The notes below the pieces were generated by a model that saw nothing but the letters and a program-made list of their open reading frames with translations, had not been told where the DNA came from and did not search any database. Position numbers and translations under genes: made by a program. A DNA stretch of 64,000 bases from Gimesia fumaroli (GTDB lineage: Bacteria; Planctomycetota; Planctomycetia; Planctomycetales; Planctomycetaceae): assembly GCF_007754425.1 (NCBI RefSeq), contig NZ_CP037452.1:496001-560000 (forward strand), read 5' to 3'. Below are positions 22,445-38,783 of the stretch, piece by piece; position 1 is the first letter of the stretch; each line of letters begins with the position of its first letter.

Positions 22445-25400
22445 TCACCCTACACCGTATAATTCGAAGGCTGCTGCAACATGCATCGAAACGCCTTGTG
22501 ACAACGCTGTTTTACGAGCTTGATTTAATGCACGTGCTCTCATAAAAGGATGGTGTTTATTTTCGATCTTGGACAATTCTCGACCAAACTCCGAAATGAG
22601 ATGGGCCGATTCTATGTCCGCAACGTTCCACCTGGCAGCCACAATTGTTCTTCCTCCATTTCCAGCAATGGTTGCACACAATCCCTGTGCATCCTCGCCA
22701 GGATTCTGTGATAATCGGCCAACGCTACAGGACATAAGGGTAAGTACATCAACTTGAGAAAAATCACAATCACTTGCTCTCCAGATCCCTTCGTGTGCAT
22801 CTCCAGCAAGCTTGACTCCAGATTCCTCAAATAGCCCGTGTGCTCCTATATAAACATACCCAAATCTTCCACTAGAGATTGCATGGGAAACATTTTCTGG
22901 AGTTGCCAGTGGATCGTCAGATAAAGTCCATATCTCACAGTTTGATTCTTGTGCCAACTGGTGCAGTTTTTTATGAAGCATCGGCAGTCCTACACAGTTT
23001 CTCCGTTTGTGTTCTTCCTCCCATTGCACGGACAGTATTCGAGGCACATCGATTTGTTGCTGTTGTTGCTCCTGTTCAGTAACATGGCGTAAGGCCAAGT
23101 TCAATATGGTGCTTGTTGAAGCGACCTGTTCAAAAAGCGGCTTTCCGCCAAAATCAATCGCACATAAAGGCAATGTGAACATTGAACCCTGCACTTGAAA
23201 AACAACATCCGTTTCTGACCAGGAAAATTGCCTTTCAGTTTGTTTCCAGAGTTCCGATAGATCAAAATGCTCTGACAGCATAAAGATGATGTCATTCAAG
23301 AGTTCATCGAATTTTTTTCTCCGGCTATTTTCCGTAGCTAGTCCATTGGTTGCTAGCAATGATGCAACAACATATTGCCACAGACCCACGCTTGCTTTGA
23401 TGGATTGTAAAGATAAACGGTGCTCCAACCCTTCTAATAAATTTACACCAAAACGACACACGATTGGGCTGATATGCTTTAAGGAAAATAGGCTGGTTTT
23501 TAATAGATCTATTTTTGCCGAAGGTATATCGGAAGCATGTCCGCATTCGCCTTCTTCAAGCGTTGCCAAAACCAGTTTGGTGATATCGTGTAGTGTTTTC
23601 TCCAAGTTCAAATCGACATGTTCTAGATCTAACCCGTGATGCCGATTCCATTCTAGCTCTGTAAACAAGTCATTGAGATATCCTACATACATCAGATGCA
23701 TAGAAGGGTTTGTATCGACATCTTGGGTTATATCTGAATTGTAAACGGAACTATCACATATTGTTGAAACCAGTTTTTCCAACACCCCTTCTGATGTTTT
23801 TCGCCAGGCCCACCAGCGAATATTTCCATCTGAATCAGTAAGGGTACGGATCCAAACAGTATTTGATGGAATCAGCTCCTCAAGTGTTGTTGGAGAATCC
23901 ATGATTGATTGTAATAACTTCGGCCGTTGCTCTGCTATTGTATTCCCATTACTTAGCGTTACATCTTTTCTAGTATCATCTACACAAACACTTCCCAGGC
24001 AAACGCTATATTCATTCAAGTCTCCCTCTTTTAACGTCTTTTCATCCCATGGACTCCTCATGCCCCATGCATTTGGTTTCCAGTTGGGAATCGCTGTAGG
24101 TATTAGACCCCGCCTGTCTATTAATCGTTCCAATAACAAGCGATTTTCAAACTGTTCAATCCACTCAAGCAACGTCTTTTCAAATGCCTGCTTTTCTTCA
24201 TGCATCCCCCTCTCTGCCAGAGAGTCAAACCTCTGCCATCCTTTGTTTTTGATCTCATTCATAAGTCCACGTACTGATTCATAGAACTCTATCCGTTGGG
24301 TGACAGTACGTAAAACGTCATGACGATGCTCTCGCACAAATTTCACGACTGATTCAGCTAATACAAGATAACGAGAATCCATCGGAGACATCAGACGCAA
24401 TCTGAGATGCAGTGCTTCCAACCATTCTCTAGATCCTGATTTGACAAGAAGTGGACGGTGAGCGATGCAATGTGCCCTATCTCCCATAGCAGCCTCCAAA
24501 AGATTTGTAGCACATTTGTTGTCCCCCACTGCTTCAAGTGTGCGGGCAATCAGAAGCATTTCCTTGTGTGATAACGCTTTCTCTACAGAACTTTCGAGTA
24601 TTTCCTGTATTTCGTAAACGCTCTCGCGAAATGATATACCCGCCCAAGATTGTAATGCTTCGACTGCTTGATCTGGGCAATTGTCACGAAGACACATGTC
24701 AGCCAAAGAAAAGACTGCATGTCTGATCAGGTCTTCCGATAAACCTGACTCTTGCGAAACGCGGTCTGTGCAATGCCCCCCTTTTTTGTCTTGCAGTACT
24801 TGACACAATAGGTCTGCCATTGCCCTAATCGCCCGGCTGGAATCTCCTGCATATGCGATGGAACGACATAATACTATACGCAACTTTTCCACCCCCCAAT
24901 GGACATTGCCGGAAATAACAAATTCTGAACGAGGGAACGAGTTTGATTGCATTTCCGAAGATATAATCGTGCTCGCGACATCGGAATCAAGCATTCGATG
25001 AAAAGAGTCCGCCCCCATCCCTGCAAGTGTTGCTTCGCTTTGCCAGTATTTCTCCAGAAGGCAGTATGGAGCAATCTTCGGCTTTACTCCCGTCTCGATC
25101 CATAATTCTGCCAGTTGGCATACAAAGCGTACCCGATCTGCAAACGCCCCCGACGTAAAAAAGTCGGGCAACGACACCTTCTCCAAATCTTGCGTGCTAA
25201 TTGATACCGGGTCAACTTGTAAGACCGCTTCTCCCAAAGCCGATGCATATTTAGCGCCTCGGCTATCAGAGTTATCAACAGCCACCATGAACTTTCGGAT
25301 TTGCTGGACAGCAACTTTGTCACAGATGCTCCAAAACTCCGAACGGGCTATCTTTTCTCGCAATGCTGTTTGGCTTTCGTAATCTTCAACACATATCCCA

Positions 25401-27409
25401 AAAAGCAGCTGTTCGTAGAGTATCACACTTGCGACTTGGATACTGTGTGCACTGTATTCCTGAAGGCTATTCATGAGCATGCCGAGAGAGAAAGATGTTT
25501 CATCACGGATAAAACCATTGTCATCTGGTGGAATAGGAATGCTTACTCCATTGCCATTACAGCGAGCTAGTAGGGATGACCTTGATATGTCCGAAACCAG
25601 CGAGTCTTCGTTGTCGTAGAAATCAACCGCGATTTTTTCCCATGCCATTAAAATTGGCACTGCTGTGTCCCCATGGTTCGGCACCAGCGAACTTATTTGT
25701 GCAACCCAGTGGCTACCGTTGTGGTATATTGCCCCAATGTTCTTTGTCCTATTAACTAGTACTGCAGGTATAGGCCCACCGGCCATGTCCCACCCTTCAC
25801 GCTTCGCCAACTCTGTAACTGCATTGGACATTACCTTTGAGATATTGTCTATGTCATCGCTGTTGTCTATATCATTGTCATCATTTTCATAGATATTGAT
25901 GACATCACTATCGTCACTATGATGCCGGATAACAACACGGAAGTGCCATGCGTCGAGCAAATATCGAGCGGCAATACTTCCCCCGTTGTCGCTCGTTTTT
26001 TGTAACGCACTGCCCCAGGAAGCAAGCAGTTCGTAAACAGCCACGGGGTCGTTTAGTAATATCGCAATCAGCGGTGGGAGAATTTCAGTGCCGTAGTGCT
26101 CGCCAACTGTTGTTATGGCACATTCTGCGGAGATGTCATCAACAGGGAGCCCCAACTCCTTGTTCAACAGATTGAGGGCTTTTTTGGGATACCCAAGTTC
26201 TGTCAACGCCATCGACGCCATTGCGAACGCGACGGCATCGAGATAAGCAACATCAGAGTTTTTTCTCCAAGCAACCTCGGCTGTGGCAGCATGTCCTGTG
26301 TGAGGATCAATAATTACCATGGACAATGCCCAATACAACCCAACACAATAGAGTCGGCCTGTAGGATTGCTATCAAGAGTTCTTGCCCAGTCAAGAAACA
26401 CTCCCTCGTTGATTGCATTTTCGTCTTCGACGACTATTCCTAAGGTGTTTGCCACTTCAGTGACCCTCGTTGCCGAAATGCATTTGTCGCACAACTCTGC
26501 AAAAGTTGGACAATCAAAATACAGTTGCTCCAAGTTCTCTGCTATTAATTGGTCTCTTGGTAACCAAAAATCACTAGGAGTACCTGCCTTTTTTGATTCA
26601 TTGACAATACGAGAATGTGCAATATCCTTTGCAAAACGAGGTAGAAATACGCTTCCTACAAGAGGATGGGTTGTCAGGATAACTAGATCTTGTGCAGTTT
26701 CAGAAGATGCTTGGCAGTGTCCCCACGTCTCCTCCCACCAACATGAGTACAATTCTGACTTGAGAAATTCTCCATCTTTGCCTGCATGCTCGCACATAGC
26801 CAATAGGCTGCCACCTACACATGCCCACACTCTCCATTCAACTGTCTTTTCTGCAAGAGAGCGTGTCACGCTTGCGAGGAAATCTGCCTCATTTTTTTGT
26901 TCATATTTTATGCCAAGCCACTCGGATAAGAATGAAAGACCAATATCGAGAGAACGAAGCTGTGTCAGTGACTGTGAAATCAATGCCGAAACAGTCGGAC
27001 ACAAATGGCTCCCTTTCTTCGTGTCGTCCCCATCACCGGGATGTGCCCAAGCATTCACAGCACAGTACAAGCTCAAAGCTGGATTCTGGCCGCAAACACC
27101 GGCTGCTCTTTCGTACCAGTCCTGCTGTGTCTGGACAATCCTTCCAAGCTGCTTCCGAGCACGCTTGCAATCGCCAACATCGGACAGTTCTTCGCAAAGA
27201 TGTGCAAAGAAGGGATGCTGTGTGTCGTCTTCCAGCAAAGGTGCGGTGTATTTTACTAAAGGGAGAAGACGATGCGTGTAGTGGTGCTCCACCCACGACT
27301 CAGGTTTCTCAGCAAGTGCTTCTTTGACAGCCTGCTTCCAGAATGCCGGGATGATGGCACACCCTTCTTCTGTGTCTAGCAGGCGTTTGACCGCTTCGCT
27401 TACACTCAT
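22445..27409 (-). CDS. Giant CHAT-domain (caspase-like) protease with long helical N-terminus
   Basis: A 1654-residue protein. About 1350 N-terminal residues are alpha-helical with no clear motif, probably a superhelical repeat scaffold of the TPR type; an acidic, Asp/Asn-rich loop (DNDIDNSDDIDN) lies near 520. The C-terminal 250 residues are a CHAT domain: FGYVYIGAHGLFEESG (catalytic His near 1524), VLTLMSCSVG (catalytic Cys near 1561) and GGRTIVAARWNVAD, with both residues of the dyad intact. CHAT proteins are clostripain/caspase-fold cysteine proteases used in defence and signalling. Its start overlaps the stop of the anti-sigma-like gene by four bases, so it is the last gene of an operon with an ECF sigma factor. 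Confidence 0.85.
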   Translation of the reverse strand: MSVSEAVKRLLDTEEGCAIIPAFWKQAVKEALAEKPESWVEHHYTHRLLPLVKYTAPLLEDDTQHPFFAHLCEELSDVGDCKRARKQLGRIVQTQQDWYERAAGVCGQNPALSLYCAVNAWAHPGDGDDTKKGSHLCPTVSALISQSLTQLRSLDIGLSFLSEWLGIKYEQKNEADFLASVTRSLAEKTVEWRVWACVGGSLLAMCEHAGKDGEFLKSELYSCWWEETWGHCQASSETAQDLVILTTHPLVGSVFLPRFAKDIAHSRIVNESKKAGTPSDFWLPRDQLIAENLEQLYFDCPTFAELCDKCISATRVTEVANTLGIVVEDENAINEGVFLDWARTLDSNPTGRLYCVGLYWALSMVIIDPHTGHAATAEVAWRKNSDVAYLDAVAFAMASMALTELGYPKKALNLLNKELGLPVDDISAECAITTVGEHYGTEILPPLIAILLNDPVAVYELLASWGSALQKTSDNGGSIAARYLLDAWHFRVVIRHHSDDSDVINIYENDDNDIDNSDDIDNISKVMSNAVTELAKREGWDMAGGPIPAVLVNRTKNIGAIYHNGSHWVAQISSLVPNHGDTAVPILMAWEKIAVDFYDNEDSLVSDISRSSLLARCNGNGVSIPIPPDDNGFIRDETSFSLGMLMNSLQEYSAHSIQVASVILYEQLLFGICVEDYESQTALREKIARSEFWSICDKVAVQQIRKFMVAVDNSDSRGAKYASALGEAVLQVDPVSISTQDLEKVSLPDFFTSGAFADRVRFVCQLAELWIETGVKPKIAPYCLLEKYWQSEATLAGMGADSFHRMLDSDVASTIISSEMQSNSFPRSEFVISGNVHWGVEKLRIVLCRSIAYAGDSSRAIRAMADLLCQVLQDKKGGHCTDRVSQESGLSEDLIRHAVFSLADMCLRDNCPDQAVEALQSWAGISFRESVYEIQEILESSVEKALSHKEMLLIARTLEAVGDNKCATNLLEAAMGDRAHCIAHRPLLVKSGSREWLEALHLRLRLMSPMDSRYLVLAESVVKFVREHRHDVLRTVTQRIEFYESVRGLMNEIKNKGWQRFDSLAERGMHEEKQAFEKTLLEWIEQFENRLLLERLIDRRGLIPTAIPNWKPNAWGMRSPWDEKTLKEGDLNEYSVCLGSVCVDDTRKDVTLSNGNTIAEQRPKLLQSIMDSPTTLEELIPSNTVWIRTLTDSDGNIRWWAWRKTSEGVLEKLVSTICDSSVYNSDITQDVDTNPSMHLMYVGYLNDLFTELEWNRHHGLDLEHVDLNLEKTLHDITKLVLATLEEGECGHASDIPSAKIDLLKTSLFSLKHISPIVCRFGVNLLEGLEHRLSLQSIKASVGLWQYVVASLLATNGLATENSRRKKFDELLNDIIFMLSEHFDLSELWKQTERQFSWSETDVVFQVQGSMFTLPLCAIDFGGKPLFEQVASTSTILNLALRHVTEQEQQQQQIDVPRILSVQWEEEHKRRNCVGLPMLHKKLHQLAQESNCEIWTLSDDPLATPENVSHAISSGRFGYVYIGAHGLFEESGVKLAGDAHEGIWRASDCDFSQVDVLTLMSCSVGRLSQNPGEDAQGLCATIAGNGGRTIVAARWNVADIESAHLISEFGRELSKIENKHHPFMRARALNQARKTALSQGVSMHVAAAFELYGVG

Positions 27410-28227
27410 CGCATATCGCCCTCCACTGCTGGAACTTGTACCTCAACACAAACACCCCACGTCCTCTTCTCGGATTTCCATTTATGCTGGATCTGAATGT
27501 AATCCTTCGGTTGAGGCACGCGATTATCCGGCACAGCCAGCTTGACAACGTTTCCTTCCTCTAGCTTTCCCTCGGCAAGTCGTGTGCCGTCACTGCTGTG
27601 CCAGCCAATATGTATGATGCTTTTCTCGCCAGGTTCCAGGAACCCCTCAAGGCGAACCTGCATTTCTCTGGTAGACTTCCAGAGCAATGTTACCATGGCT
27701 GGTTCTGTCGTGTCAGGTGGACTTCCTTGGTGCCACAGGCAATCTGTTGGCTGCACTTCTGCTGCCAGCAACACAGTATCCGGTGTTCCTTCATTATGAC
27801 TGAGGGCAGTTGCTGCAATGTGCCCTGATTGCCGTTGCTGCGTCTTCACACGAAATACTGGTCGATTAGGCAGGGAACTCCCCTCGTCTTTGCCCATCGT
27901 CGAGCGACTGCGAAAAATCGCATGCAGCACTTTTCCCGTAAGTCCTTGACGTCTTGGTGGTGCTTGCTCTGGGTGAGGGGCGTTAGGTGCTGTTGCCTCG
28001 GCAATCTCCCGAAACTCTTCGTATGCACGTTTCCAGCGAATGTCGTTCTCAATCAAGAACTGGACATCCTGCCTCACTTCTTCATTTGGCAGCGCTCCGT
28101 CAATGTAGTCAATAACTACGCCGATATCGAGTTCCGGAATTCCTTTTGCTCGTCGGTAATCTTCGTACAACCGAAGTAGTTCTGGCGGTACTTCTGGTGT
28201 GTCATCGAAATTGTTATTCATTGCCAT
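27406..28227 (-). CDS. Anti-sigma-like regulator between the sigma factor and CHAT genes
   Basis: A protein of about 273 residues (ATG at 28227 or 28221; a start at 28254 would overlap the sigma gene further). The N-terminal 75 residues, with IDYIDGALPNEEVRQDVQFL and DIRWKRAYEEFREI, resemble the helical sigma-binding domain of anti-sigma factors but lack the zinc HxxxCxxC motif. A Pro/Ser/Gln linker follows, then a beta-rich C-terminal domain (residues 175-270; MQVRLEGFLEPGEKSIIHIGW, DYIQIQHKWKSE). No membrane span is present. Genes on both sides overlap it, so sigma, regulator and CHAT protein are made together; it is the obvious candidate link between protease and sigma factor. Confidence 0.6.
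   Translation of the reverse strand: MAMNNNFDDTPEVPPELLRLYEDYRRAKGIPELDIGVVIDYIDGALPNEEVRQDVQFLIENDIRWKRAYEEFREIAEATAPNAPHPEQAPPRRQGLTGKVLHAIFRSRSTMGKDEGSSLPNRPVFRVKTQQRQSGHIAATALSHNEGTPDTVLLAAEVQPTDCLWHQGSPPDTTEPAMVTLLWKSTREMQVRLEGFLEPGEKSIIHIGWHSSDGTRLAEGKLEEGNVVKLAVPDNRVPQPKDYIQIQHKWKSEKRTWGVCVEVQVPAVEGDMR
28010..28210. repeat. Direct repeat copy A (anti-sigma-like domain)
   Basis: This 201-base block inside the anti-sigma-like gene recurs at 28760-28960, offset by exactly 750 bases, with about seven base differences by eye. Confidence 0.9.
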
Positions 28228-28720
28228 ACCCGTTCTTGCTAAGAAAGGATGCAAGTGCTGTTTTCATCCTGTGGATGCATCTGCCTATTGCAGAGCTGCT
28301 ACTATTTGTTTTTCGTGCAATCTCACTGTACGAGACCCCTTCGACCCACAGTCCAAGGATCTCTTTCTCCTGGTCTTCAAGGCCTGATTGGAAGATGGCA
28401 AGGTCGTGAAAGAAATCGGACTGACAAGAGTTCATGCAAGCAATGCGAAACGCATGATATTCTGAATATTTATCTTTGTAGTTTCTTCGTTTTCTTTCAC
28501 GCCTGTGTTCATCTACCACCTTGTTTTTGGCGATTTTTATAGACCACGCTTCCAGGCTATCGATGCCCTTCCATTGGCTCCTATTCACATACAAGGTCAG
28601 CAATACGTCCTGACAAAGGCCTTCAGTATCCATGTAGGAAGGGCACGTTGCGTCAAGATACCGTAACAGGGCCGGTCCCAGTGCAGTTAGCTGCTCGATG
28701 CAAAGATCATCACTGGACAT
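28214..28720 (-). CDS. ECF-type RNA polymerase sigma factor
   Basis: A 168-residue sigma-70 family protein with region 2 (CQDVLLTLYVNRSQWKGI, LEAWSIKIAKNKVVDEHRRE) and region 4 (QEKEILGLWVEGVSYSEIARKTNSSSSAIGRCIHRMKTAL at about 117-155; split here for length: DQEKEILGLWVEG, YSEIARKTNSSS, IGRCIHRMKTAL). It would redirect RNA polymerase to its own regulon. It lies between a short anti-sigma-like gene (6 bases upstream) and the full-length one (overlapping). No promoter of the usual ECF form was identified by eye. Confidence 0.82.
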   Translation of the reverse strand: MSSDDLCIEQLTALGPALLRYLDATCPSYMDTEGLCQDVLLTLYVNRSQWKGIDSLEAWSIKIAKNKVVDEHRRERKRRNYKDKYSEYHAFRIACMNSCQSDFFHDLAIFQSGLEDQEKEILGLWVEGVSYSEIARKTNSSSSAIGRCIHRMKTALASFLSKNGYGNE

Positions 28721-28725: not shown

Positions 28726-28977
28726 CTAACCATCCTCTCTCTCTTCATGGCACACTTCTCGAAACTCTTCGTATGCACATTTCCAGCGAATGTCGTTCTC
28801 AATCAAGAACTGGACATCCTGCCTCACTTCTTCATTTGGCAGCGCTCCATCAATGTAGTCAATAACTACGCCGATATCGAGTTCCGGAATTCCTTTTGCT
28901 CGTCGGTAATCATCATACAACCGATGTAGTTCTGGCGGTACTTCTGGTGTGTCGTCGAAAGTGGAGTCGTTTTCCAT
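28726..28977 (-). CDS. Short duplicate of the anti-sigma-like domain
   Basis: An 83-residue protein almost identical over about 68 residues to the N-terminus of the gene at 27406 (EVPPELHRLYDDYRRAKG, IDYIDGALPNEEVRQDVQFL), then a different tail CHEEREDG. It is the first gene of the sigma/CHAT operon and ends 5 bases before the sigma start. It carries the putative sigma-binding domain without the linker and beta-rich domain, so it could be a second, protease-insensitive inhibitor or a decoy. It could equally be a duplication scar, although its reading frame is intact. Confidence 0.6.
   Translation of the reverse strand: MENDSTFDDTPEVPPELHRLYDDYRRAKGIPELDIGVVIDYIDGALPNEEVRQDVQFLIENDIRWKCAYEEFREVCHEEREDG
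28760..28960. repeat. Direct repeat copy B (anti-sigma-like domain)
   Basis: Second copy of the 201-base block, within the short first gene of the operon. The high identity with copy A indicates a recent duplication or gene conversion. Confidence 0.9.
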
Positions 28978-29680: not shown

Positions 29681-29930
29681 ACATTTCCGTACTGATAAAG
29701 GATGCGTACCAAGGCTTTCAGGATGCCTACACATACCTTAACGACAGGCTTTTCGGAAAGGAACTCCCCCGATTGTCTGATTATCCTTCAACGAAAGGCA
29801 AATCCCTTGTGGAGATTGCTGAAGAACAACATCGCTTCAGGAGTGACCACTGCATCGCTCAAAATACCTTTCGTGTTGATCCATCAATGGCTCTGGTCAA
29901 AGATCAAAGAAATTACAACAAACCAATAGT
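29677..29930 (+). pseudogene. SprT-like domain remnant
   Basis: Begins MNISVLIKDAYQGFQDAYTY then LNDRLFGKELP, and after a shift at a run of five C (near 29766-29770) continues as PDCLIILQRKANPLW. This is the N-terminal signature of the SprT-like proteins carried by mobile elements. The downstream HExxH region expected in that family is not found in either frame, so the gene is broken or a fragment. Overlaps the preceding gene by four bases. Confidence 0.55.
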
Positions 29931-29970
29931 TTTACTGTTCCCATCTCAAACGAGAAAGGTCTGATAAACG

Positions 29971-30180
29971 ATGTATACCATCCACAGTTACCACAAAAAA
30001 GCGAAGTGTGAATATGCAGGACGCGAAGGGGAAGCGGTCGAAATTTCGTCTGCCGATGGAACTATCGATCATGCGATTCTTTGTTTCCAGGAACTACAAA
30101 AACTGCTTCGATTTCGTCAGTCACAAACTGAAAAGAAAAACGGTTTTGTCCCGAAAGCGAGTTCAGTTTCATCGAAATAA
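29971..30180 (+). CDS. 69-residue hypothetical protein
   Basis: A small protein, MYTIHSYHKKAKCEYAGREG followed by AVEISSADGTIDHAILCF and a basic C-terminus. Its predicted strand-strand-helix order and length invite comparison with beta-grasp modifiers, but it has no terminal Gly-Gly and ends in a Ser/Lys tail, so I do not call it ubiquitin-like. It lies just upstream of the E2-like gene. No clear ribosome binding site. Confidence 0.45.
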   Translation: MYTIHSYHKKAKCEYAGREGEAVEISSADGTIDHAILCFQELQKLLRFRQSQTEKKNGFVPKASSVSSK

Positions 30181-30257
30181 TATTTTACCGTTCGAGTTCA
30201 ATCCCGTTTTCGGGTTTCACTATAACAGGTTTCCTATGAAGAAGGAGCATTAACACA

Positions 30258-30551
30258 ATGGCTGTTACCAAACATTACCGGGTCAACGGAAGTGATAACT
30301 ATACCGTCACGTACAGGCAAAAATGGAATGGGACGTATGAGATCAGTTGTTCCCAACATCCGCATAATCCACAGAGCACTAACGTGAATGACTGTCATCT
30401 GTATTCCGATGGGAGAGTCTGCGTCGCCAAAGGAAAGGAACCGCGTACGCTTTCAAAAGCGATGGCCATCGGAATGGCCTTTTGTGAAGGGTATAGTTCA
30501 TATGTGCAGTCAGGATTTTTCCCCAATGGCCGCAAGCGTGTAAACGTTTAA
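30258..30551 (+). CDS. Compact E2 (ubiquitin-conjugating enzyme)-like protein
   Basis: A 97-residue protein whose core has the E2 order: strands NYTVTYRQKWNGTYEISC, a HPHNPQ turn (residues 34-39), HLYSDGRVC (47-55) and a C-terminal helix LSKAMAIGMAFCEGYSSYV. HLYSDGRVC corresponds to the H-x-G-x-[IV]-C stretch before the active-site Cys of E2 enzymes, making Cys55 the likely thioester residue. At 97 residues it is smaller than eukaryotic E2s (about 150). It precedes JAB and E1-like genes, the bacterial ubiquitin-type arrangement. AAGGAG lies near the start (AAGAAGGAGC, about 10 bases before ATG). The assignment rests on the motif plus context. Confidence 0.6.
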   Translation: MAVTKHYRVNGSDNYTVTYRQKWNGTYEISCSQHPHNPQSTNVNDCHLYSDGRVCVAKGKEPRTLSKAMAIGMAFCEGYSSYVQSGFFPNGRKRVNV

Positions 30552-30834
30552 CGGCTGTGTTTTCCTGAGGTCGTTACCACAGCGGGCTTCGTTCCAACGT
30601 TGTGATGACGACAGGTTACCAGGTGGAACGACATTCAAAGAAGGACTTCGTCATGAAATATGTTGTATATGGCATTGAAGAACTGGAAGACGGAACGTTG
30701 CACACTGGCAGATAGTAACCGTTATTAAAGACTATCTGTAGTGCCTGAGCATTGCCGGGATCGACACCAATATGATCGATCCCCGGCATGCCTTAATTAC
30801 CATTTATTGTTTCACATTTAACCGGAGAATAATC

Positions 30835-31509
30835 ATGTTTAGTCCCCCACTCCTATTTCTCGATGACCTACCAGGTCTTTGGCGTAGAAGATTGGATACG
30901 CTGCAAAATGCGTGTTGTAATGGCCTACCCATCGGATCGGAAATCATTCATGAAAAATCTGATCCGGAAACCCAGATGCAACCAAATCCGAAGCCTCTCA
31001 TTGATCGTCGAAAGAAACATAAAGGAAGCTACCGTGGCGTAATTTTAGATCACAAAGTGACCGGTCTCGGTCCGGTTCTGAAAATGACACAGTCGGCTTA
31101 TCAGCAAATTCTGGATGATCTGGTTGAGCATCCTTTTCGCAAAGAGAAGGCCGGTATCTTACTGGGGCCGACGGCAGAGGATGATCTTGTAACCCACTAT
31201 GTCCCTGACGAAAACGGTCAAGCGACGTACTCTTCGTTTACCCTGGATGCCGCAAGTCTCAATCGAACTCTGAAACATCGAAAAGGTGTTGGATTGAATT
31301 GCAAAGGAGTAGTCCACGTCCATCCGCCCGGAGCGTTGCACCCTTCGTTTGGGGACCTGGAGTATGTCGCCAAACTGTTTGCCAATCCTAAGAACACGGA
31401 AGCAACACAAGTGATGCTCCCGATTGTTGCCGATGGTCGGCTCTACCCCTACCAAATCGATGCTAGTAATCCCCGTGAAGTCCTGATTCCCCGCTTGATT
31501 TTGATCTGA
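30835..31509 (+). CDS. JAB/JAMM-family metallopeptidase (deconjugase-like)
   Basis: A 224-residue protein from the ATG at 30835, which has GGAGA 5-7 bases upstream; an in-frame start 21 codons earlier is less likely. After an N-terminal extension of about 65 residues, the JAB domain shows KAGILLG preceded by Glu104 and HVHPPGALHPSFGD: His161-x-His163-x7-Ser171-x2-Asp174, a complete JAMM zinc motif. JAMM enzymes cut isopeptide bonds or process ubiquitin-like precursors. Located between the E2-like gene and the E1-like gene. An imperfect hairpin TGCCGGGATCGA / TCGATCCCCGGCA lies just upstream (about 30754-30793). Confidence 0.82.
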   Translation: MFSPPLLFLDDLPGLWRRRLDTLQNACCNGLPIGSEIIHEKSDPETQMQPNPKPLIDRRKKHKGSYRGVILDHKVTGLGPVLKMTQSAYQQILDDLVEHPFRKEKAGILLGPTAEDDLVTHYVPDENGQATYSSFTLDAASLNRTLKHRKGVGLNCKGVVHVHPPGALHPSFGDLEYVAKLFANPKNTEATQVMLPIVADGRLYPYQIDASNPREVLIPRLILI

Positions 31510-31583
31510 CGACATTGGCGGGATTCATCCAGGAGCATCAAACAATATTTACAACGTAATTCATTAAAGAAAGGCACGAAACC

Positions 31584-32531
31584 ATGCAATTTGAGCGAAT
31601 CAAAGATGTGATTGATATTCCAACCATCCAGTCCAAGGTAGTGACAATTATCGGTGCTGGTGGATCTGCGCCGTTGATTGAGAATCTCACTCGATGCGGT
31701 GTGCAACATTGGAAGCTAGATGACCCGGATATTATCGAGAACGTGAACATTGCCCGGCAGGGGCATTCTCCGGCCGATATCGGGATGCCGAAGGTGCATG
31801 CGGTGGCCAATAAGATCTGGGCAATCAATCCCGCAGCGACTGTGGATTGTTATCCGGAGGACTTTACGAAACTGAGTGATGAGGAAATACGTGAAACCTT
31901 CGGCAACAGTGATCTGTTGATTTTTGCGACCGATTCCTTTGCCGCCCAGTCTCGGGGCAATGAGGTTGCTCTGCTTCTAAATACCTCGGCCATCTGGATC
32001 GGCCTGTATCCGGGCGGGGCGGGAGGCGAAGTCGTCTTTTGGCATCCAGATCGTGAATGCTGTTTTCGCTGCCTCTGCAGCGGCCGCTATCAGGCACAAC
32101 AGCAGGCTGCTCAGCAGGGGCGTTCGCTCGATCCTCCGAGTGACGGCGCAACAATTTTCGATATCCAATTGCTCGACTCCATTGCCGGTCACATCTGCCT
32201 GGGCCTTCTTACCCGAGGTTGTGAGAATCGCTTTGGCCAATTGATTGACCAGCTGGGGGATCGGCAATTTATTCAGGTCGGCATTCGTCCCGATTTTCGC
32301 ATCAAAGGAAAAGATGTGATCCGCAAGCATTTGGGGGTCGATGCAAATTGCCGATCGCTGTTTGCCTGGAACTCCATTGCTTTGAGCGATCCGGATAAAG
32401 GGAACGCCTACTGTTCCGATTGTAAGAGGTATCGTGGAATCACGTTTTCGCGTTCGGCAGAAGGAAGCTCTGGTTCTGTTCGGGTACGAACGGAGCAAGA
32501 CCGTCAGAAAAAATCAACGGCCGTCAATTAA
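31584..32531 (+). CDS. ThiF/E1-like activating enzyme
   Basis: A 315-residue adenylating enzyme. The Rossmann ATP site GAGGSAPLIENL (24-35) is followed by DDPDIIENVNIARQ (46-59; the Asn and Arg-Gln correspond to the SNLNRQ motif), IGMPKVHAV (Lys70) and LLIFATDS (Asp117). Two Cys pairs, CFRC (160-163) and CSDC (near 277-280), are placed as the structural zinc site of ThiF/MoeB/E1 proteins; Cys165 or Cys159 could serve as a thioester acceptor. It would adenylate the C-terminus of a ubiquitin-like modifier and pass it to the E2-like protein. A purine-rich AAAGAAAGG precedes the start by 8 bases. Confidence 0.82.
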   Translation: MQFERIKDVIDIPTIQSKVVTIIGAGGSAPLIENLTRCGVQHWKLDDPDIIENVNIARQGHSPADIGMPKVHAVANKIWAINPAATVDCYPEDFTKLSDEEIRETFGNSDLLIFATDSFAAQSRGNEVALLLNTSAIWIGLYPGGAGGEVVFWHPDRECCFRCLCSGRYQAQQQAAQQGRSLDPPSDGATIFDIQLLDSIAGHICLGLLTRGCENRFGQLIDQLGDRQFIQVGIRPDFRIKGKDVIRKHLGVDANCRSLFAWNSIALSDPDKGNAYCSDCKRYRGITFSRSAEGSSGSVRVRTEQDRQKKSTAVN

Positions 32532-32582
32532 TCGGGGCGGTTAGTACTTTAGATATGTTTTCTTCTAAGAGGGAAATATCAC

Positions 32583-33257
32583 ATGGAAATACTTCTGATA
32601 CTCGGGATAATGGCTGGTGGAGGCTGGTGGCTGTGTAAGCGGTTTTATCACGTGATTCAGTCTGCTCACAGGCAGAACCAATGGCAACGACAGAACGATG
32701 CGGTCTCAATGGGACGCCAGCAACAGCAGCAGCGGCAAATGTATGAACGCCGCCGTCGGCAACAAGTGCTCAATCAAAAATATCGTGCACTCCAGGTCGC
32801 TTTATTGCAGCTGCAGCAGGCGCCTGATTTTCTACGGGCGGCCTCTCGGGCAGAGGCTGCCAGTGAGGTTCCACTGGCTTTGCGGCAACGGCAGTATCGC
32901 CGCTTTCGGCCAAAACTGATCAGACATTTCGTACGCCGTCTGCGGATGGGGACTGATACCCAGGTTCTGCTCGATTCTCTCACGACACTGGTCGAAGCAC
33001 TCGGCGTTGCCGGTTTTGAGGCGAGTTATATTGAACAGGCAGCCTCGCGGCAGTTGCAAAACAGAACCAGGAGACCAGTGGAAAATTTCTCTGCCACGTT
33101 AGAGCGAGTACAACGGGAGCATGCTGACCGGAAGGCCGCACTGAATCAGGCGAACCTGGAACCGGATACGAAGCAGCAATTACAGGAAGCACAGGACCAG
33201 CAGTTAGTGGAATCCTTGATGGAAATGACGCTTAGTAATCGGGGAGAAGAGACATGA
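32583..33257 (+). CDS. Membrane-anchored, Gln/Arg-rich coiled-coil protein
   Basis: A 224-residue protein with an N-terminal membrane helix (EILLILGIMAGGGWWLC) and a long, highly charged helical body rich in Gln and Arg (for example RQQQQQRQMYERRRRQQ near 45-61). Its stop overlaps the ATG of the second coupling ATPase by four bases, so the two are made together. An inner-membrane adaptor or anchor for that ATPase, which has no membrane span of its own, is a reasonable inference. No family is recognised. Confidence 0.6.
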   Translation: MEILLILGIMAGGGWWLCKRFYHVIQSAHRQNQWQRQNDAVSMGRQQQQQRQMYERRRRQQVLNQKYRALQVALLQLQQAPDFLRAASRAEAASEVPLALRQRQYRRFRPKLIRHFVRRLRMGTDTQVLLDSLTTLVEALGVAGFEASYIEQAASRQLQNRTRRPVENFSATLERVQREHADRKAALNQANLEPDTKQQLQEAQDQQLVESLMEMTLSNRGEET

Positions 33258-35155
33258 ATGGGCTTTCCAGAACTATCAAACCGAACCGACTATCCCGAAC
33301 CAGACGGCATTCGTTTTTCTCGGCGAAACAGCTCTTTGCTGAGAGTCAGGCGGGCATCTTCATCTCCGGCGATTCTGGTTTCGGAAAGAGCAATGCGATG
33401 AAAGTGCTGATGCAGCTCCTGGCGATCTTGGGATACGGCTTTCTGTTCATAAGTCCGCACGGTTCTGATCCGAGAGACATACTGAGTTGGTGCATGGCTC
33501 AGAAAGCATCGATCCGCAATCGGGTCGTGTATATCGATCCGGCTGAGACATCACGTACGACCTGTATCAATCCCCTCGCAGTCGAACCGACCCGTGATCC
33601 GATCCAATACCGCGCTCGGCTGGTCAGTAAAATCGGCCATGTCTGTCGAATTCTGCTCTCTGCCTGGGGAGAGGAAGATTTTGACAGTCGCCCCCGGCTC
33701 TTTACCTGGACAATGAGAATTTTGAAGACGCTTGCAGAACTCGGTTTACCGCTGGCGGATGCGAAGCATTTTCTGGATGTCGGTTCGGACATCTACAACG
33801 CTCTGGTACAAGCGGTTCCTGACGTCATGGCACGCCATTTCTTTGAGAACCTGGCCGCCGGTCGTCCGCAGGAGATCCGGGAAGAGATTGAATCGACGCG
33901 TAATCGTATTTTGGGGTTCTTCAGCAATCCGATTATCGAAGCCATGCTTTCCCGGACAAGCGGGGTGCTCGATTTTGGTCAGCTGCGACGAAAAAACGCG
34001 ATCGTGATCGTCAATCTCAGACAGGGGGGCGTTTTACGAGAGGAAGATCAACAAATATTAGCGAATCTGTTTCTGGCCGAGTTATTACACGATGTTTTTA
34101 ATAGTGATACTCCTACGCCGTACTTTGCCTTTCTGGATGAGCTTCCTGTCTTTGCCAGGGGATCAGGCCCAGAACTGACTGCTGCAGCCGGCCAAATCCG
34201 CAAGTTTTTATTACGTCTGGTTTGTGCCACGCAAGGGGCGAATCCTTTTCCGGATCGTATGGATGATCGTTTACTGAATGCCCTGATTGGGCAGTGTGGT
34301 CTGCATTTTCTCTTTCGCCATAAGCATCCGTATGATGCGAAGTTTTTTGGTGAGATCATCGGATTCCCGACCTATGACCCCCAGCGAGTGAAGCATCAGA
34401 CAGTGCAGTCGCAGCAGTATCAGGCGGGCCATGATTTAGTCACCCTGATGGATTTCAGTGAAAGCGAGTCGGAAACCAGGGGGACGGGAGGTTCTGAATC
34501 AAACGGTATTACGGAGTCCGAGCAGTGGAGTGATACCCAGAGCCATTCGGTAGGTTCATCCACCAGTCGTTCGGAATCAAGCTCACAAACAACGGGGACC
34601 AGTCAGAATCCCTACGACATACAATTGCAACAGATACGACAGGCGGTCAGTGATACTCGGTCTTCTACAACAGGGCAATCCGAAAACCGTACTGATGGTC
34701 GTTCTTCAACGACGGGAGGATCGCAGGGACACTCTCATCAAACCAGCCAGAGCTGGTCGCAATCTGTGGGAAAAACGACGGGAAGAACTTTTAAACAGTC
34801 ATTGGTTCCTCGGCTACTTTGGAGAGACGTTGTGACCGGCGTCACATTTTATTCGCCACAAGAACACCAGATGATGAATGCGGCCCGGCTGGCATCACTG
34901 CAGATTGGAGAAGCGATTGTCTACGGTCCGGGAAAGCCGATGCAGATTCATTTCCCATTGGCACAAAATCCTGCTCGCTGGTCTCCGAGATTTGTCGCGC
35001 GGCGTATGGAACATTACTTGGAACTGTTAGCACAGGTATTTCCTTCTCCACAGCAGGTCTTAGCCGAACGTCAACAGGAACTGGAAGCAATCATTCACAA
35101 TCTGGGCCTGGCATTACCTGAACAGGATGCTGGCGATGATCCGTTTCCCAGTTAG
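33254..35155 (+). CDS. VirD4/TraD-like ATPase with Ser-rich insert (second copy)
   Basis: A 633-residue motor protein. Walker A GDSGFGKSN lies at 39-47, SPHGSDPRD and VVYIDPAE follow, and Walker B YFAFLDELPVF has Asp295-Glu296. A low-complexity segment at about 400-515, dominated by Ser, Thr, Gly and Gln (SESESETRGTGGSESNG), separates the motor from a C-terminal domain of about 120 residues (YSPQEHQMMNAARLASL ... VYGPGKPMQIHFP). It is only distantly related to the ATPase at 14934. It may drive DNA or protein export at the membrane through the protein encoded upstream. The linker resembles those of similar element ATPases and may be a flexible tether. Confidence 0.78.
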   Translation: MNGLSRTIKPNRLSRTRRHSFFSAKQLFAESQAGIFISGDSGFGKSNAMKVLMQLLAILGYGFLFISPHGSDPRDILSWCMAQKASIRNRVVYIDPAETSRTTCINPLAVEPTRDPIQYRARLVSKIGHVCRILLSAWGEEDFDSRPRLFTWTMRILKTLAELGLPLADAKHFLDVGSDIYNALVQAVPDVMARHFFENLAAGRPQEIREEIESTRNRILGFFSNPIIEAMLSRTSGVLDFGQLRRKNAIVIVNLRQGGVLREEDQQILANLFLAELLHDVFNSDTPTPYFAFLDELPVFARGSGPELTAAAGQIRKFLLRLVCATQGANPFPDRMDDRLLNALIGQCGLHFLFRHKHPYDAKFFGEIIGFPTYDPQRVKHQTVQSQQYQAGHDLVTLMDFSESESETRGTGGSESNGITESEQWSDTQSHSVGSSTSRSESSSQTTGTSQNPYDIQLQQIRQAVSDTRSSTTGQSENRTDGRSSTTGGSQGHSHQTSQSWSQSVGKTTGRTFKQSLVPRLLWRDVVTGVTFYSPQEHQMMNAARLASLQIGEAIVYGPGKPMQIHFPLAQNPARWSPRFVARRMEHYLELLAQVFPSPQQVLAERQQELEAIIHNLGLALPEQDAGDDPFPS

Positions 35156-35168
35156 AGGTAGACAGACG

Positions 35169-36104
35169 ATGATTACCACAAGAGACATTCCGGTATTCGA
35201 GAAGCTGGCCCGGTATTTTTTGATGAATCGCCGTATGGTGCAGCAGGAGTGCTATCCGACCGACCGAGATGGTCGCCTCTCCCGCCGCCGCCTTTCGGCT
35301 CTGTTGCACGACGGCTATATCAGCAAACAGCGGATGCTGGTCGTGAACCCGCGCGATGAGACCCCAGCGCCCGTCTATCATCTGGCGAAGCAAGGTTGCC
35401 AGTTTTTAGCGGAGCATTTTGAAGACGATCGGTATTTAATGAAGCCGACCAGCATTGCGCAGCCGATGCACCTTTATCATTATCTGGCCGTGGCCAACAC
35501 ACATATGCTGCTCGACAAAGCCATTGCCCAAAGTCCTGTCAAATTGGTGGCCTGGTGCAATGAGCAGGAATATCTCAATCCGGAGAACCCCGATCCCAAG
35601 CAACGAATTCGGTTGTATGCCGAACTGAAGACGGCCCCTAAAAAAATCATCTGTGCTCCCGACTCCGGTTTTCTGCTGGAAGTAGACGGGCACCGTGGTG
35701 TCTTTTACCTGGAGCAGGACCGAGACCGTGACAACTACAGTCACAATCGTGTCGCGGCATTGAAGTCTCCCGGCTATACGGAACTCCATCGCCAACAACG
35801 ACATCGAAAACATTTCCCGGAAACAACTCTCAATCGGTTTACCGTAGTGATGGTTGCACCGAGTGTAAAACGGCGTGATGCCCTCCGTCGCGCTTTTCAT
35901 AAAAAAGCAGGCGCGGATTTTTGGCGGTTTGCATCACTGACAGAATTAACGCCAAAAACATTTCTGCATGAACGGGTCTGGTATCGGACGGATGCTGACG
36001 AGCCACAACCGTTGGTCAAGCCAACGACATCATCAACCGTCACATCAGAATTAGTTCGAAATAGCGAGGAGACAGACAATGCGTTGGCAGTCTCAAAATC
36101 TTGA
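35169..36104 (+). CDS. Replication-relaxation family protein (second copy)
   Basis: A 311-residue protein from ATG 35169 (an upstream in-frame start at 35127 lies inside the ATPase gene). The N-terminal winged helix (DIPVFEKLARYFLMNRRMV ... RLSALLHDGYISKQRM) is followed by PVYHLAKQGCQFL, HLYHYLAVANTHMLL, a core with GFLLEVDGHRGVFYLEQDRD, and a late FTVVMVAPSVKRRDALRRAF. It has the same domain order as the protein at 13772. The gene is tightly linked to the second ATPase, repeating the relaxation protein/ATPase pairing of the first module in the opposite order. Confidence 0.72.
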   Translation: MITTRDIPVFEKLARYFLMNRRMVQQECYPTDRDGRLSRRRLSALLHDGYISKQRMLVVNPRDETPAPVYHLAKQGCQFLAEHFEDDRYLMKPTSIAQPMHLYHYLAVANTHMLLDKAIAQSPVKLVAWCNEQEYLNPENPDPKQRIRLYAELKTAPKKIICAPDSGFLLEVDGHRGVFYLEQDRDRDNYSHNRVAALKSPGYTELHRQQRHRKHFPETTLNRFTVVMVAPSVKRRDALRRAFHKKAGADFWRFASLTELTPKTFLHERVWYRTDADEPQPLVKPTTSSTVTSELVRNSEETDNALAVSKS

Positions 36105-36663
36105 ACGATTTACCTATATCGGGGCCTCCGGGCAGGTCTCCGCCCCGACATATGCTGGTTGTTTTGTGGGTTGTTTGTGTATTTGTTTGCCCACCAACGA
36201 CTTACGGGTGTCGTGGCTGTCATTCGGCAAGCTCAATCCAGCCCCGACCTCACAGCTTTCCAGGGGGGTAACGAGTCAACCTGTGAGGTCGGGGCTAGAT
36301 CGCCCCCGACACCCCCGGAAAACCATCCGTCAGCTCCCGGCCATATGCCTGCCGCTGTCAGATTGTTTTCCACTCTTCTTCCTCTGGTCAGAAGAGCATA
36401 AGTCGTACTCCCTCCCATGTATGTTGTTTTGTTTTTTACGAACCGGCAATGCCGGGCTGTTTTTGTTTGGCCGACAGCACGCAAAATTGCATAGCAATAC
36501 ATTGCATGCCTCCCATGAAAATAAATTCCGGCATGAACGGATTGAATACATCCAGGAAGTTCGAGATCTTTCGTACACGCTGACACGGCAGCGTTTTACG
36601 GGAGCGAACTTTTTCGATGTCCGCCTACGGGCGGTTTTTGTACCCCATTTCACCCCTAATTGT
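36105..36663. other. Palindrome-rich non-coding stretch, possible transfer origin
   Basis: Contains a perfect 16-base inverted repeat (36240-36296) and a smaller CGGGGC/GCCCCG pair (36120-36125 and 36142-36147). An open frame spanning it (from 36079) has Cys- and Leu-rich content unlike its downstream part and is not credible here. Placement right after the relaxation-protein gene fits an origin of transfer or replication. Confidence 0.45.
36240..36296. repeat. Perfect 16-base inverted repeat, 25-base loop
   Basis: AGCCCCGACCTCACAG (36240-36255) pairs with CTGTGAGGTCGGGGCT (36281-36296). It is not followed by a T-run on either strand, so a simple terminator is unlikely. Confidence 0.85.
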
Positions 36664-37053
36664 ATGGAACACGTACCAACCACAGTTCGACACGATGTCG
36701 ATTCTAAAATGAGGACACCGATTGTCATTGCGAAACCACATTGGTTTCAGTTTTGGAAACAGCCCACGCTTGTCAATATGCAATTGCTCGCCCGCCAGGT
36801 CGACCTTGCAAATGACTGGAATCGGTTGACTGAACAGAGGCGAAAACTTCTCGAAGACCTAAGTAGTTTTCAGAAGCAGACAACCCAGTTCAAAAAACAG
36901 GAAGGAAAGTGGCGAAACCTGTTTCAGACCATCGAGTGGGCTTCACAGCCAACTCGAAAAACCAACAAGCCCCGTGTCCTCCCGGGCATGGGACTTGAAT
37001 TGAGCCTCCTGGCTCTGCATTTGGTGGTAGGAATCGCATTTATGATGGTCTGA
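36664..37053 (+). CDS. Hypothetical coiled-coil protein with C-terminal membrane helix
   Basis: A protein of about 129 residues from ATG 36664 (ATG 36709, MRTPIVIAKPHWFQFWKQP, is an equally good start). A helical, charged middle (NDWNRLTEQRRKLLEDLSSF) leads to a C-terminal hydrophobic helix (LELSLLALHLVVGIAFMMV), a tail-anchor arrangement. The frame extends far upstream through palindromic DNA but that part does not look coding. No family is recognised; the job is unknown. Confidence 0.4.
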   Translation: MEHVPTTVRHDVDSKMRTPIVIAKPHWFQFWKQPTLVNMQLLARQVDLANDWNRLTEQRRKLLEDLSSFQKQTTQFKKQEGKWRNLFQTIEWASQPTRKTNKPRVLPGMGLELSLLALHLVVGIAFMMV

Positions 37054-37096
37054 CCATCATGACGGAAGCGATTCCGAAGGAGTGAGAACAGTGTGT

Positions 37097-37129
37097 CATA
37101 CGGAAGTTGCCGTTGTCAACTTCCGTATG
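37097..37129. terminator. Perfect 13-base hairpin
   Basis: CATACGGAAGTTG (37097-37109) pairs with CAACTTCCGTATG (37117-37129), loop of 7. It lies 43 bases after the preceding stop. No T-run follows, so it may stabilise or end the upstream message, or act as a protein site. Confidence 0.55.
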
Positions 37130-37215
37130 CAGGCTCGCGGATGTGTTGAGTGTCGTTTTCGAACGTACCAGACGCTTTCTAAAGCTGACCATGATTCCCA
37201 TCAGGAATCCAACTC

Positions 37216-37244
37216 GATGAGCAGGCGATTCTCCCTCGCTCATC
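37216..37244. repeat. Hairpin GATGAGC/GCTCATC upstream of the first paralogue
   Basis: Stem 37216-37222 with 37238-37244, followed by AACTTTTATT. A related hairpin lies at 37919-37947 before the paralogous gene, so the leader was duplicated together with the gene. Confidence 0.6.
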
Positions 37245-37372
37245 AACTTTTATTGGATGCAACGACCGGTTTCAACTTCACCGACCAGAGAGGGTTGGTT
37301 TGGTATTTGGTTGGGACAGGTCTTTCATCCCGTCAATTTGACGGATTTCAATTTCTTTACTCCCTCATCATT

Positions 37373-37693
37373 ATGGAAAATGAAAAGAAAACAACACCGG
37401 CAAAAGTTTCTAACGCCACTAACAAGGTTAAGGAATCAAAACAGCCACCCATTTGTCGTGTGGAATTCAGCGGCATCAGCGCTGCTGTCTGGCCCAAGCA
37501 GATTCCTTCTGCCGACGGTCAATCACGCGAAACGTGGATGGTCAGTCTCACCCGTTCCTATCGGGACGGGAATGAGACAAAGCGAACGCACGTTCTATTT
37601 CCGGAACATTTACTGCCCGCTTCAATGGCGCTCATCAAAGCATGGGAATTTATTGAAAACGGCGGCAAACCCGAGGAGCAGAATGATGCATAA
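37373..37693 (+). CDS. Small conserved-looking protein, paralogue of the 38154 gene
   Basis: A 106-residue protein from ATG 37373 (the frame extends 97 codons upstream through hairpin DNA, which is not credible). After a Lys-rich start of about 28 residues it has ICRVEFSGISAAVWPKQI, ETWMVSLTRSYRDGNETKRT and a C-terminal helix LLPASMALIKAWEFIENG. The plan, strands then one helix, and the pattern R.(Y)(K/R)DG match the gene at 38154. It might be a small ssDNA-binding or regulatory protein of the element, but that is a guess. Confidence 0.6.
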   Translation: MENEKKTTPAKVSNATNKVKESKQPPICRVEFSGISAAVWPKQIPSADGQSRETWMVSLTRSYRDGNETKRTHVLFPEHLLPASMALIKAWEFIENGGKPEEQNDA

Positions 37694-38153
37694 GGACGCA
37701 ATCGCAACGGTGAAGGATTTCGTTGGTTGCTAAGAGCTTGCTCAATCCAACGAGACTGGAGTGAGAATCAAAGCATTTCGGAACGGTTGCCCTCTCAATC
37801 GTTCCGGAAACAAACCTGCCCTCTGTGGCAGGAGGCTGGACAACTTCGTCGAGTGTCATCTGTGGATGTACCAGGCATTTTGACTGGCTGAAATCGATTC
37901 ACTTTTTGAATCTCATTCGATGAGCGGAACATCCTCTCCCGCTCATCACCCTTTGTTCGGTTTCAAACGACCGCCAAACTCTTGTCGAAAATGTTCACGA
38001 TCTCCTTGCGCACTTTGCAAACTCGTGTCATGGTCGCGGTCTGTCTGCTCGATTTGATGTTTTTCCATGTAGACAGGTAAACGAATCTCACGGGTTGCTG
38101 ATTAACTATGAGAGGCAATTCAGAACTGTTCCTTCCACAGAAAGGTTGAACCA
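37694..38153. other. Long leader between the paralogues, with hairpins
   Basis: No gene is supported. Two hairpins are visible: TTTCGGAACGGTTG with CAATCGTTCCGGAAA (about 37785-37813, imperfect), and a perfect 9-base GATGAGCGG/CCGCTCATC (37919-37927 and 37939-37947) followed by ACCCTTTGTT. They mirror the two hairpins ahead of the first paralogue. Confidence 0.5.
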
Positions 38154-38429
38154 ATGGCTAAAAAAAGTGCAAAACGAAACAGTAATAATCCTCCGGAAAA
38201 AGTGTTCCGAATTGGATTCATCACGGCTTCCGTTTTCGGACATGAAATTGAAACTGACGAAGGTCCCATTACAGTTCGTAGCGTCAACGTGCAGAAACGG
38301 TATAAGGATGGAGAGGACGTTAAATATACGTCGTCCTTTAATCTGGCGGAATTGCCACAGGCGATTCGCGTGCTGCAGATGGCACAGGGCTACGTCGAAC
38401 GGGCTGAAGCCGAAATCTTTCTGGACTAG
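38154..38429 (+). CDS. Small basic-start protein, paralogue of the 37373 gene
   Basis: A 91-residue protein: MAKKSAKRNSNNPPEKVFRI, then GFITASVFGHEI, TVRSVNVQKRYKDGEDVKYTS and a helix LPQAIRVLQMAQGYVERA. It matches the gene at 37373 in length, order and key residues. The beta-strand run with alternating basic residues and the single C-terminal helix would suit nucleic-acid binding. A terminator follows within 25 bases. Confidence 0.65.
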   Translation: MAKKSAKRNSNNPPEKVFRIGFITASVFGHEIETDEGPITVRSVNVQKRYKDGEDVKYTSSFNLAELPQAIRVLQMAQGYVERAEAEIFLD

Positions 38430-38450
38430 AACTTCGGCAGATTCGTTTCT

Positions 38451-38490
38451 GGACGGTGATTGAAACTTCGATCACCGTCCCCTCTTTCTT
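38451..38490 (+). terminator. Rho-independent-type terminator
   Basis: A perfect 10-base hairpin GGACGGTGAT / ATCACCGTCC (38451-38460 and 38471-38480, 10-base loop) followed by CCTCTTTCTT. It lies between the 38154 gene and the excisionase-like gene and probably ends the former transcript. Confidence 0.7.
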
Positions 38491-38510
38491 AAAACTTGAA
38501 AGGTATGAAG

Positions 38511-38783
38511 ATGAACGTACCAGAAATTGAGAATCGACTCGAAAAGATCGAAACGCTTCTCTCTGAACTGATCCAACAAAAAACTCAGAAGGAATGGTAT
38601 AGCACAGCGGATCTCGCAGAACTCACAGGTCGGGCCGAATTTACAGTTCGTGAATGGTGCCGCCTCGGTCGTGTCACGGCAGAAAAAGAGGTTGATGGAC
38701 GGAAACATGAATGGCGAGTCAGTCATGCAGAAGTCCAACGTATTCTAAATCATGGTCCAAGACCACTCATCCTTCGAAATTGA
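38511..38783 (+). CDS. HTH excisionase-like DNA-binding protein
   Basis: A 90-residue protein. ATG 38511 is chosen because AAAGG lies 7-8 bases upstream; TTG 38496 and ATG 38505 are alternatives. An N-terminal coiled coil (ENRLEKIETLLSELIQQK) leads to a MerR-like helix-turn-helix of the HTH_17/Xis class: EWYSTADLAELTGRAEFTV then REWCRLGRVTAEK and the short wing HEWRVSHAEVQRIL. Directly upstream of an integrase gene, this is the expected place for an excisionase or recombination directionality factor. Confidence 0.75.
   Translation: MNVPEIENRLEKIETLLSELIQQKTQKEWYSTADLAELTGRAEFTVREWCRLGRVTAEKEVDGRKHEWRVSHAEVQRILNHGPRPLILRN

Follow-up and report, generated by a model that had tools for sequence, protein, structure and literature searches.

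The 64-kb stretch of Gimesia fumaroli DNA analysed here (the window; bases 496001-560000 of the 7.7-Mb single-contig genome G000) carries a compact ubiquitin-type cassette with genes for an E2-like protein, a JAB/JAMM peptidase and an E1/ThiF-like adenylating enzyme. A preliminary description of the window had located these open reading frames (ORFs) correctly, together with a 69-residue ORF (s69) upstream of them, and had taken the s69 product for the only small candidate for a modifier. It had, however, missed a micro-ORF between the E2 and JAB genes (Table 1). This micropeptide gene occurs in all 11 cassettes of the window's family, which were found in nine planctomycete genomes. Its conservation, its linkage to the cassette, the selection on its coding sequence and the presence of a hairpin behind it are established. 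It is puzzling that some E1/E2/JAB sets have no ubiquitin-like protein that can be recognised; ORFs as short as some 20 codons are usually passed over by gene callers.

Table 1. Features of the cassette and its surroundings, in positions of the window (aa, amino acids; E, expectation value; HTH, helix-turn-helix; RRE, recognition element of ribosomally synthesised and post-translationally modified peptides, RiPPs)
Feature	Position	Strand	Remarks
s69, small protein, 69 aa	29971-30180	+	First gene of the conserved module
E2-like protein, 97 aa	30258-30551	+	HLYSDGRVC; His47, candidate Cys55; assigned by conservation and weak model matches
Micropeptide gene, 20 aa	30653-30715	+	MKYVVYGIEELEDGTLHTGR; conserved in 11/11 cassettes
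Micropeptide core GIEELEDGTLH, 11 residues	30671-30703	+	13 units in 11 loci
Hairpin after the micropeptide stop	30749-30791	+	-22.7 kcal/mol; terminator-like or processing site
JAB/JAMM peptidase, 224 aa from the likely start	30835-31509	+	ORF opens at 30772
E1/ThiF-like adenylating enzyme, 315 aa	31584-32531	+	No N-terminal domain of RRE size
p224	32583-33257	+	Hydrophobic N-terminus (by eye), then a charged Q/R-rich region; homologue at the same place in 10/10 other cassettes
TrwB/TraD-like (HerA/VirD4 class) ATPase	33254-35155	+	T4SS-DNA_transf, E 0.0022, under the cut-off; homologues in 10/10 other cassettes
Replic_Relax-like protein, 325 aa	35127-36104	+	No Pfam hit itself
Small HTH protein, excisionase-like	38496-38783	+	HTH_17, E 1.4e-5, just under the cut-off
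Tyrosine integrase	38711-40105	+	Phage_integrase, E 1.6e-19

The cassette genes and the micropeptide gene

The E1 and JAB assignments, which had been read from motifs, are borne out by the relatives. The E1 has a single match to Pfam ThiF (E 2.6e-25, residues 15-170) and shows the features of the ThiF/E1 superfamily, namely the Rossmann motif, N-x-x-x-R-Q, the catalytic Asp and two zinc Cys pairs. Asn55, Arg58, Lys70, Asp117, Cys160, Cys163, Cys277 and Cys280 are invariant in 12/12 sequences, including that of a distant set (L015; loci and genomes are given by L and G numbers). The JAB protein matches Pfam Prok-JAB at 9e-5, which is under the family cut-off, and its profile matches JAMM1 in the PDB at 4.3e-5. 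Its catalytic residues (H-x-H-x7-S-x2-D plus Glu) are invariant in 11/11 cassettes, and E1 and JAB were conserved together in each of them; the residue numbers first given for JAB follow from the inner ATG at 30835. The E2 assignment stood as far as the conserved residues are concerned, since His47 is kept in 13/13 copies and Cys55 in 12/13; no Pfam family matches the 97-residue protein at E <= 1, and a model of the protein gives weak matches to E2 enzymes. Judged from the aligned sequences, the motif conservation of JAB, E1 and E2 is beyond chance, and the E2-JAB-E1 cassette is real.

Two E2 genes each are present in L032 and L033. The second copies (L032:7596-8045 and, on the minus strand, L033:10910-11284) begin with a stretch that is hydrophobic by eye, and an upstream ATG that is also possible for the sole E2 of L016 (L016:4066-4437) would give a similar stretch. 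These beginnings suggest membrane-bound E2s.

The micropeptide ORF was first found by aligning the E2-JAB intergenic DNA of four copies, and then in G033, L016 and five more loci. The peptides, 17-33 residues long, share the core G[IV]EE[LIV]xxGTLH and read MKIVLFGIEELDGGTLHSDN in L011, MKYVVFGIEELEDGTLHTGR in L012 (95% identical to that of the window), MKFVLNGIEELDSGTLHGIEELDSGTLHA in L013, MADVLKGVEELPSGTLH in L014, MTRKPVVRGVEELPAGTLHQPQ in L016, MTRKLVVRGVEELPPGTLHRD in L029, MFKHVPGVEELPDGTLH in L030, MTEILPGVLFGIEEIDDGTLHGIEEIDDGTLHR in L031, MRRQCMGIEEIPDGTLH in L032 and MQSVRMGIEEVDSGTLH in L033. The start codons are our choice, as several frames offer alternative starts; by eye, every ATG has before it a GA-rich stretch resembling a Shine-Dalgarno sequence, which is weakest in L016. 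The core ends exactly at the C-terminus, with His, in 4/11 loci and lies 1-3 residues before it in the other seven, and what follows the core is unrelated between loci (TGR, SDN, QPQ, RD, A, R or nothing). In L013 and L031 the 11-residue unit, exactly from G to H, is present in tandem. In L032 the micropeptide gene sits before the second E2 gene and not before JAB. From the E2 stop to the micropeptide ATG there are about 100 bases in 9/11 loci (30552-30652 in the window); the gap measures 88-111 nucleotides in 10/11 loci and 48 in L031. Within this gap, GTCGTT...AACGAC is kept in the four closest copies.

The core pattern occurs once in the window and in none of 100 shuffles, and a looser pattern had no other match in the five later loci, nor in six further loci and the window. 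A profile built from six of the micropeptides was run on 18 whole genomes and yielded 13 hits with E < 0.01. Every one of them falls on a cassette, and 9/9 cassette genomes are represented: the six model loci, five loci outside the model (1.1e-7, 5.8e-7, 8.4e-6, 3.6e-4 and 5.1e-4) and the second units of the two tandem versions. The next-best hit anywhere had 0.08, and no hit below 0.55 was seen in the nine genomes that lack the window's cassette family (eight without any cassette and G309, which has the distant E2-E1-JAB set only). Because a pattern search had revealed the five outside peptides beforehand, the profile attests to specificity and is no blind discovery.

Per site, the 13 units differ by 0.234 at codon position 1, 0.110 at position 2 and 0.586 at position 3. 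The 33 conserved bases were also considered as a noncoding DNA site, which was rejected because third codon positions vary most. The tandem units differ from each other at eight bases in L013 and at seven in L031 without a single residue change; when equal numbers of changes were placed at random, 0 (L013) and 1 (L031) of 200000 trials were silent. In the E1 tree, where 1/9 inner branches is well supported and the deeper forks are poor, the tandem versions are placed far from one another in separate parts. An independent origin is the simplest reading, which is unproven given this tree.

A hairpin follows the micropeptide stop in 11/11 loci (-17.9 to -34.8 kcal/mol) and is in each more stable than 12/12 shuffles, by a narrow margin in L012 and L016. 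The stems are apparently unrelated between lineages, T-runs are clear only in L011, L013 and L014, and a terminator scan did not list the hairpin of the window. Folding of the whole gap gives z-scores of -1.8 to -4.9; upstream of the micropeptide no structure recurs consistently (z -2.1 to 1.2), and the best upstream hairpin of L016 exceeds its downstream hairpin in strength. Rfam has no match at E <= 1 within 29800-31000.

The surrounding element and its distribution

The gene order E2, JAB, E1, p224, TrwB/TraD-like ATPase and Replic_Relax protein is constant in 11/11 cassettes. No Pfam family passes its cut-off for p224. Of three relatives of the ATPase that were scanned, only that of L033 passed the cut-off of TrwB_AAD_bind. 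The window's ATPase has a long Ser/Thr/Gly-rich insertion, similar to one in the L014 homologue, and matches mad8 of PADLOC at 6e-11. The 325-residue protein of the window is 24% identical (E 8e-14) to the L032 protein that has the Pfam Replic_Relax match, and this family was found in 5/5 proteins scanned (L029-L033), once exactly at the cut-off. Upstream of E2, homologues of s69 are present in L011, L012 and L013 (81-99% identity), L031 (62%) and L030 (35%), and weakly similar small ORFs occupy its position in L016, L029, L032 and L033; in L014 the contig end cuts this position off. The s69 protein matches no Pfam family at E <= 1, and its C-terminus is variable.

No tRNA was found within the window. 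When 29971-40105 of the window was compared with L011, L012 and L013 by blastn, the downstream transfer part was 84-88% identical (L011, L013) and JAB-E1 about 74%; E2 was barely or not aligned, and the s69 gene had 85% identity in L011. Just upstream of the module, on the minus strand (22445-28720), lie adjacent genes for a 1654-residue CHAT-domain protein, a 282-residue ORF and a sigma factor of the extracytoplasmic function type; part of the 282-residue ORF recurs nearly unchanged in an ORF at 28726-28977.

A second copy of the module is present in G000 itself (C1, at 615-617 kb), about 89 kb from the first, and G014 of the same genus has two further copies. Wider searches added G033 and the distant G309, and then G512, G553, G599, G664, G670 and G744. 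The cassette is rare: it was found in 8/397 genomes sampled from the class, in 8/170 from the family and in 1/95 from the family of G512, the class and family hits (203/203 conserved) being bounded by the genome samples drawn; a looser query gave hits in 3/392 genomes sampled from the phylum. Patterns from the E2 and E1 alignments matched 45 and 48 stretches of viral contigs with no relative among them, and the micropeptide pattern had no match there. E1 matches in plasmids (22 records) never covered more than 80% of E1, and PHROGs gave weak matches only. In genome contigs, 37 pattern stretches contained two relatives (L016 and L017), with no locus beyond G744 C49 and G033 C866.

The distant set of G309 (L015) has the order E2, E1, JAB. 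Its E2-like protein of 198 residues contains HLYDDGRIC and has no Pfam match, its E1 has an extra N-terminal domain and its JAB a C-terminal extension. No close relative of this set was detected among 23 genomes of its class.

Possible roles of the micropeptide

We see an about even chance that the window holds a ubiquitin-type conjugation cassette on an integrative element and that its modifier is the micropeptide between E2 and JAB. The micropeptide looks like the missing modifier because it is short, has a C-terminal core that is fixed and a tail that could be removed, comes with tandem precursors and is encoded inside an E2-JAB-E1 set. A more detailed version, which is tentative and against which we would lean slightly, takes the 11 residues G[IV]EE[LIV]xxGTLH for a ubiquitin-type modifier in full. 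The gene would encode it either once, followed by a short tail, or as a tandem precursor; the JAMM peptidase would mature it, an RRE-less E1 would activate it at its C-terminal His, an E2 of the minimal size of 97 residues would carry it, and it would end up on the DNA-transfer proteins of the mobile element.

The chemical steps that we infer would be as follows. The micropeptide would be translated as a precursor of 17-33 residues, from which JAB would trim a tail of 0-3 residues and, in the two tandem versions, separate the units, leaving ...GTLH-COOH. The E1, which has no invariant catalytic cysteine, would adenylate the carboxylate of GTLH, and Cys55 of E2 would accept the micropeptide as a thioester and hand it on to an amine of a target, which may belong to the DNA-transfer complex encoded nearby. 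JAB may also reverse the bond between micropeptide and target. The hairpin would keep s69, E2 and the micropeptide more abundant than JAB and E1.

The E1 profile resembles Uba5, MoeB, ThiF and MccB. According to a paper on such enzymes (PMC13255007), enzymes of the MccB type use short peptides as substrates and are able to form thioesters at the C-terminus: MccB activates a heptapeptide, and C-terminal thioesters result when the last residue is altered. The same paper describes ubiquitin-derived peptide thioesters that serve E2-based lysine acylation. No micropeptide in connection with E1/E2/JAB was found in titles or abstracts, in a search that left preprints outside and covered subscription papers sparsely.

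Several observations weigh against the micropeptide as a modifier. The E1 has no RRE, the domain with which enzymes of the MccB type bind their peptides. Its possible catalytic Cys, Cys165, is replaced by Val in L030 and by Met in L033, so that no catalytic Cys is conserved. The core ends neither in Gly nor in Ala, which are used by the known systems considered, and we know of no precedent for JAB cleavage after His. The sole exception to Cys55, the second E2 of L032, has Ser instead; the same locus also has another E2 with Cys. By pattern search, L015 has no micropeptide. Since the cassettes are partly close kin, the independent lineages are fewer than 11. Finally, a short peptide followed by a hairpin has the look of an attenuator as well.

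We regard it as unlikely that the micropeptide acts in cis, as a leader or arrest peptide, with the ribosome on GxEExxxGTLH deciding on transcription past the hairpin into JAB-E1. The hairpin directly behind the peptide in every locus, the folding of the whole gap, the clear T-runs in three loci and the position of the conserved residues close to the end of a short ORF are what one would expect of such a device. However, antiterminator-type pairing of the micropeptide region with the 5' arm was not found (mean z -0.21 over 11 loci; only L016 reaches 0.05), and a ribosome stalled on the first copy would make it hard to see why two lineages preserve both tandem units at the protein level. Because synonymous codons vary freely, sensing by a run of codons does not apply.

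Somewhat less plausible is a RiPP-like precursor, from which E1 (and E2) would make a small cyclic or adenylated product that acts as a signal or toxin of the element and not as a protein tag. ThiF-like enzymes are described to use short precursors in the microcin C7, pantocin, GRC and enterofaecin pathways (PMC12250964), and the E1 profile matches MccB (1.1e-14) and PaaA (7.7e-13). But these alignments begin at residues 12-13 of the E1 and at residues 110-128 of MccB and PaaA, in line with the missing RRE; the neighbours are DNA-transfer genes in 11/11 cassettes, and the cassette adds E2 and JAB, which the part of that review consulted here (PMC12250964) does not mention.

It is improbable that the micropeptide is a trans-acting regulator or partner of E1, E2, JAB or the ATPase, while the C-terminus of another protein serves as the substrate. 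There is a precedent in the cGAS-like substrate of the type II cyclic oligonucleotide-based antiphage signalling system (CBASS), and a short linear motif in two copies could work by avidity; yet the motif lies at most three residues from the C-terminus in 11/11 loci, which is needless for a mere binding motif, and the GRKRVNV C-terminus of E2, the one C-terminus compared systematically, is kept among close kin only. That s69 is the modifier is very improbable, as its C-terminus drifts among homologues although the gene is small, conserved and directly upstream of E2. The interpretation in the preliminary description is partly supported.

If the micropeptide is the tag, it is far smaller than the usual ubiquitin-like tags, and ubiquitin-type chemistry needs no beta-grasp protein; a fresh look for micro-ORFs in other orphan cassettes would then be worthwhile, and the genes would offer a minimal toolkit for peptide ligation. 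Should it be a leader or RiPP peptide instead, a ubiquitin-type cassette is still tied to a strictly conserved micropeptide.

Comparison with known systems

Like BilABCD, the cassette has separate E1, E2 and JAB/JAMM genes in one operon, and the Bil JAB is said to expose the C-terminus of the modifier (PMC11354881). In contrast, BilA has two ubiquitin-like domains ending in Gly, and no such gene was seen here: the proteins of the cassette region that were scanned contain no ubiquitin-like match, and the ORF list has no such gene between the cassette genes. BilD combines an inactive and an active adenylation domain with a Cys domain, whereas the E1 of the window has a single ThiF domain in 315 residues.

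The Cap2/Cap3 proteins of type II CBASS likewise apply E1/E2/JAB chemistry to a substrate without a beta-grasp fold, and the JAB cuts tandem fusions (PMC10097602). However, Cap2 is an E1-E2 fusion, in contrast to the separate ORFs found here, and the substrate is a cGAS/DncV-like nucleotidyltransferase ending in Gly or Ala; no such enzyme is among the neighbouring proteins scanned.

Types 6a-6e of Iyer et al. 2006 share neighbouring E1 and JAB, E2-like genes and, in some cases, a location on integrative elements, and type 6d combines a small beta-grasp gene with a JAB gene and a separate gene for an E2-like protein (PMC1779556). None of these types, as described there, has a micropeptide gene; in the present cassettes, JAB and E1 are separate and stand alongside the ATPase and Replic_Relax genes. 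Microcin C7 MccA/MccB and the related ThiF-like RiPP systems resemble the cassette in having a very short peptide gene alongside that of a ThiF-like enzyme (here in 11/11). Yet MccB, PaaA, GrcB and EnfB are reported to share an RRE (PMC12250964), and here there is none, but E2 and JAB.

The E1 scores 23 bits with the PRTRC_ThiF model TIGR03736, for which the cut-off is 144.75. Pup and UBact are small protein tags of about 60 residues without a beta-grasp fold; they have a GGE/GGQ-type tail, an end that the micropeptides of the 11 loci do not have, and PafA-type ligases instead of E1/E2. Judged by the sequence features tested, the cassette would work like an E1-E2-JAB conjugation set and lies outside Bil, CBASS, PRTRC and the RRE-bearing ThiF-like RiPP enzymes, and it would be categorically new if micropeptide conjugation were demonstrated.

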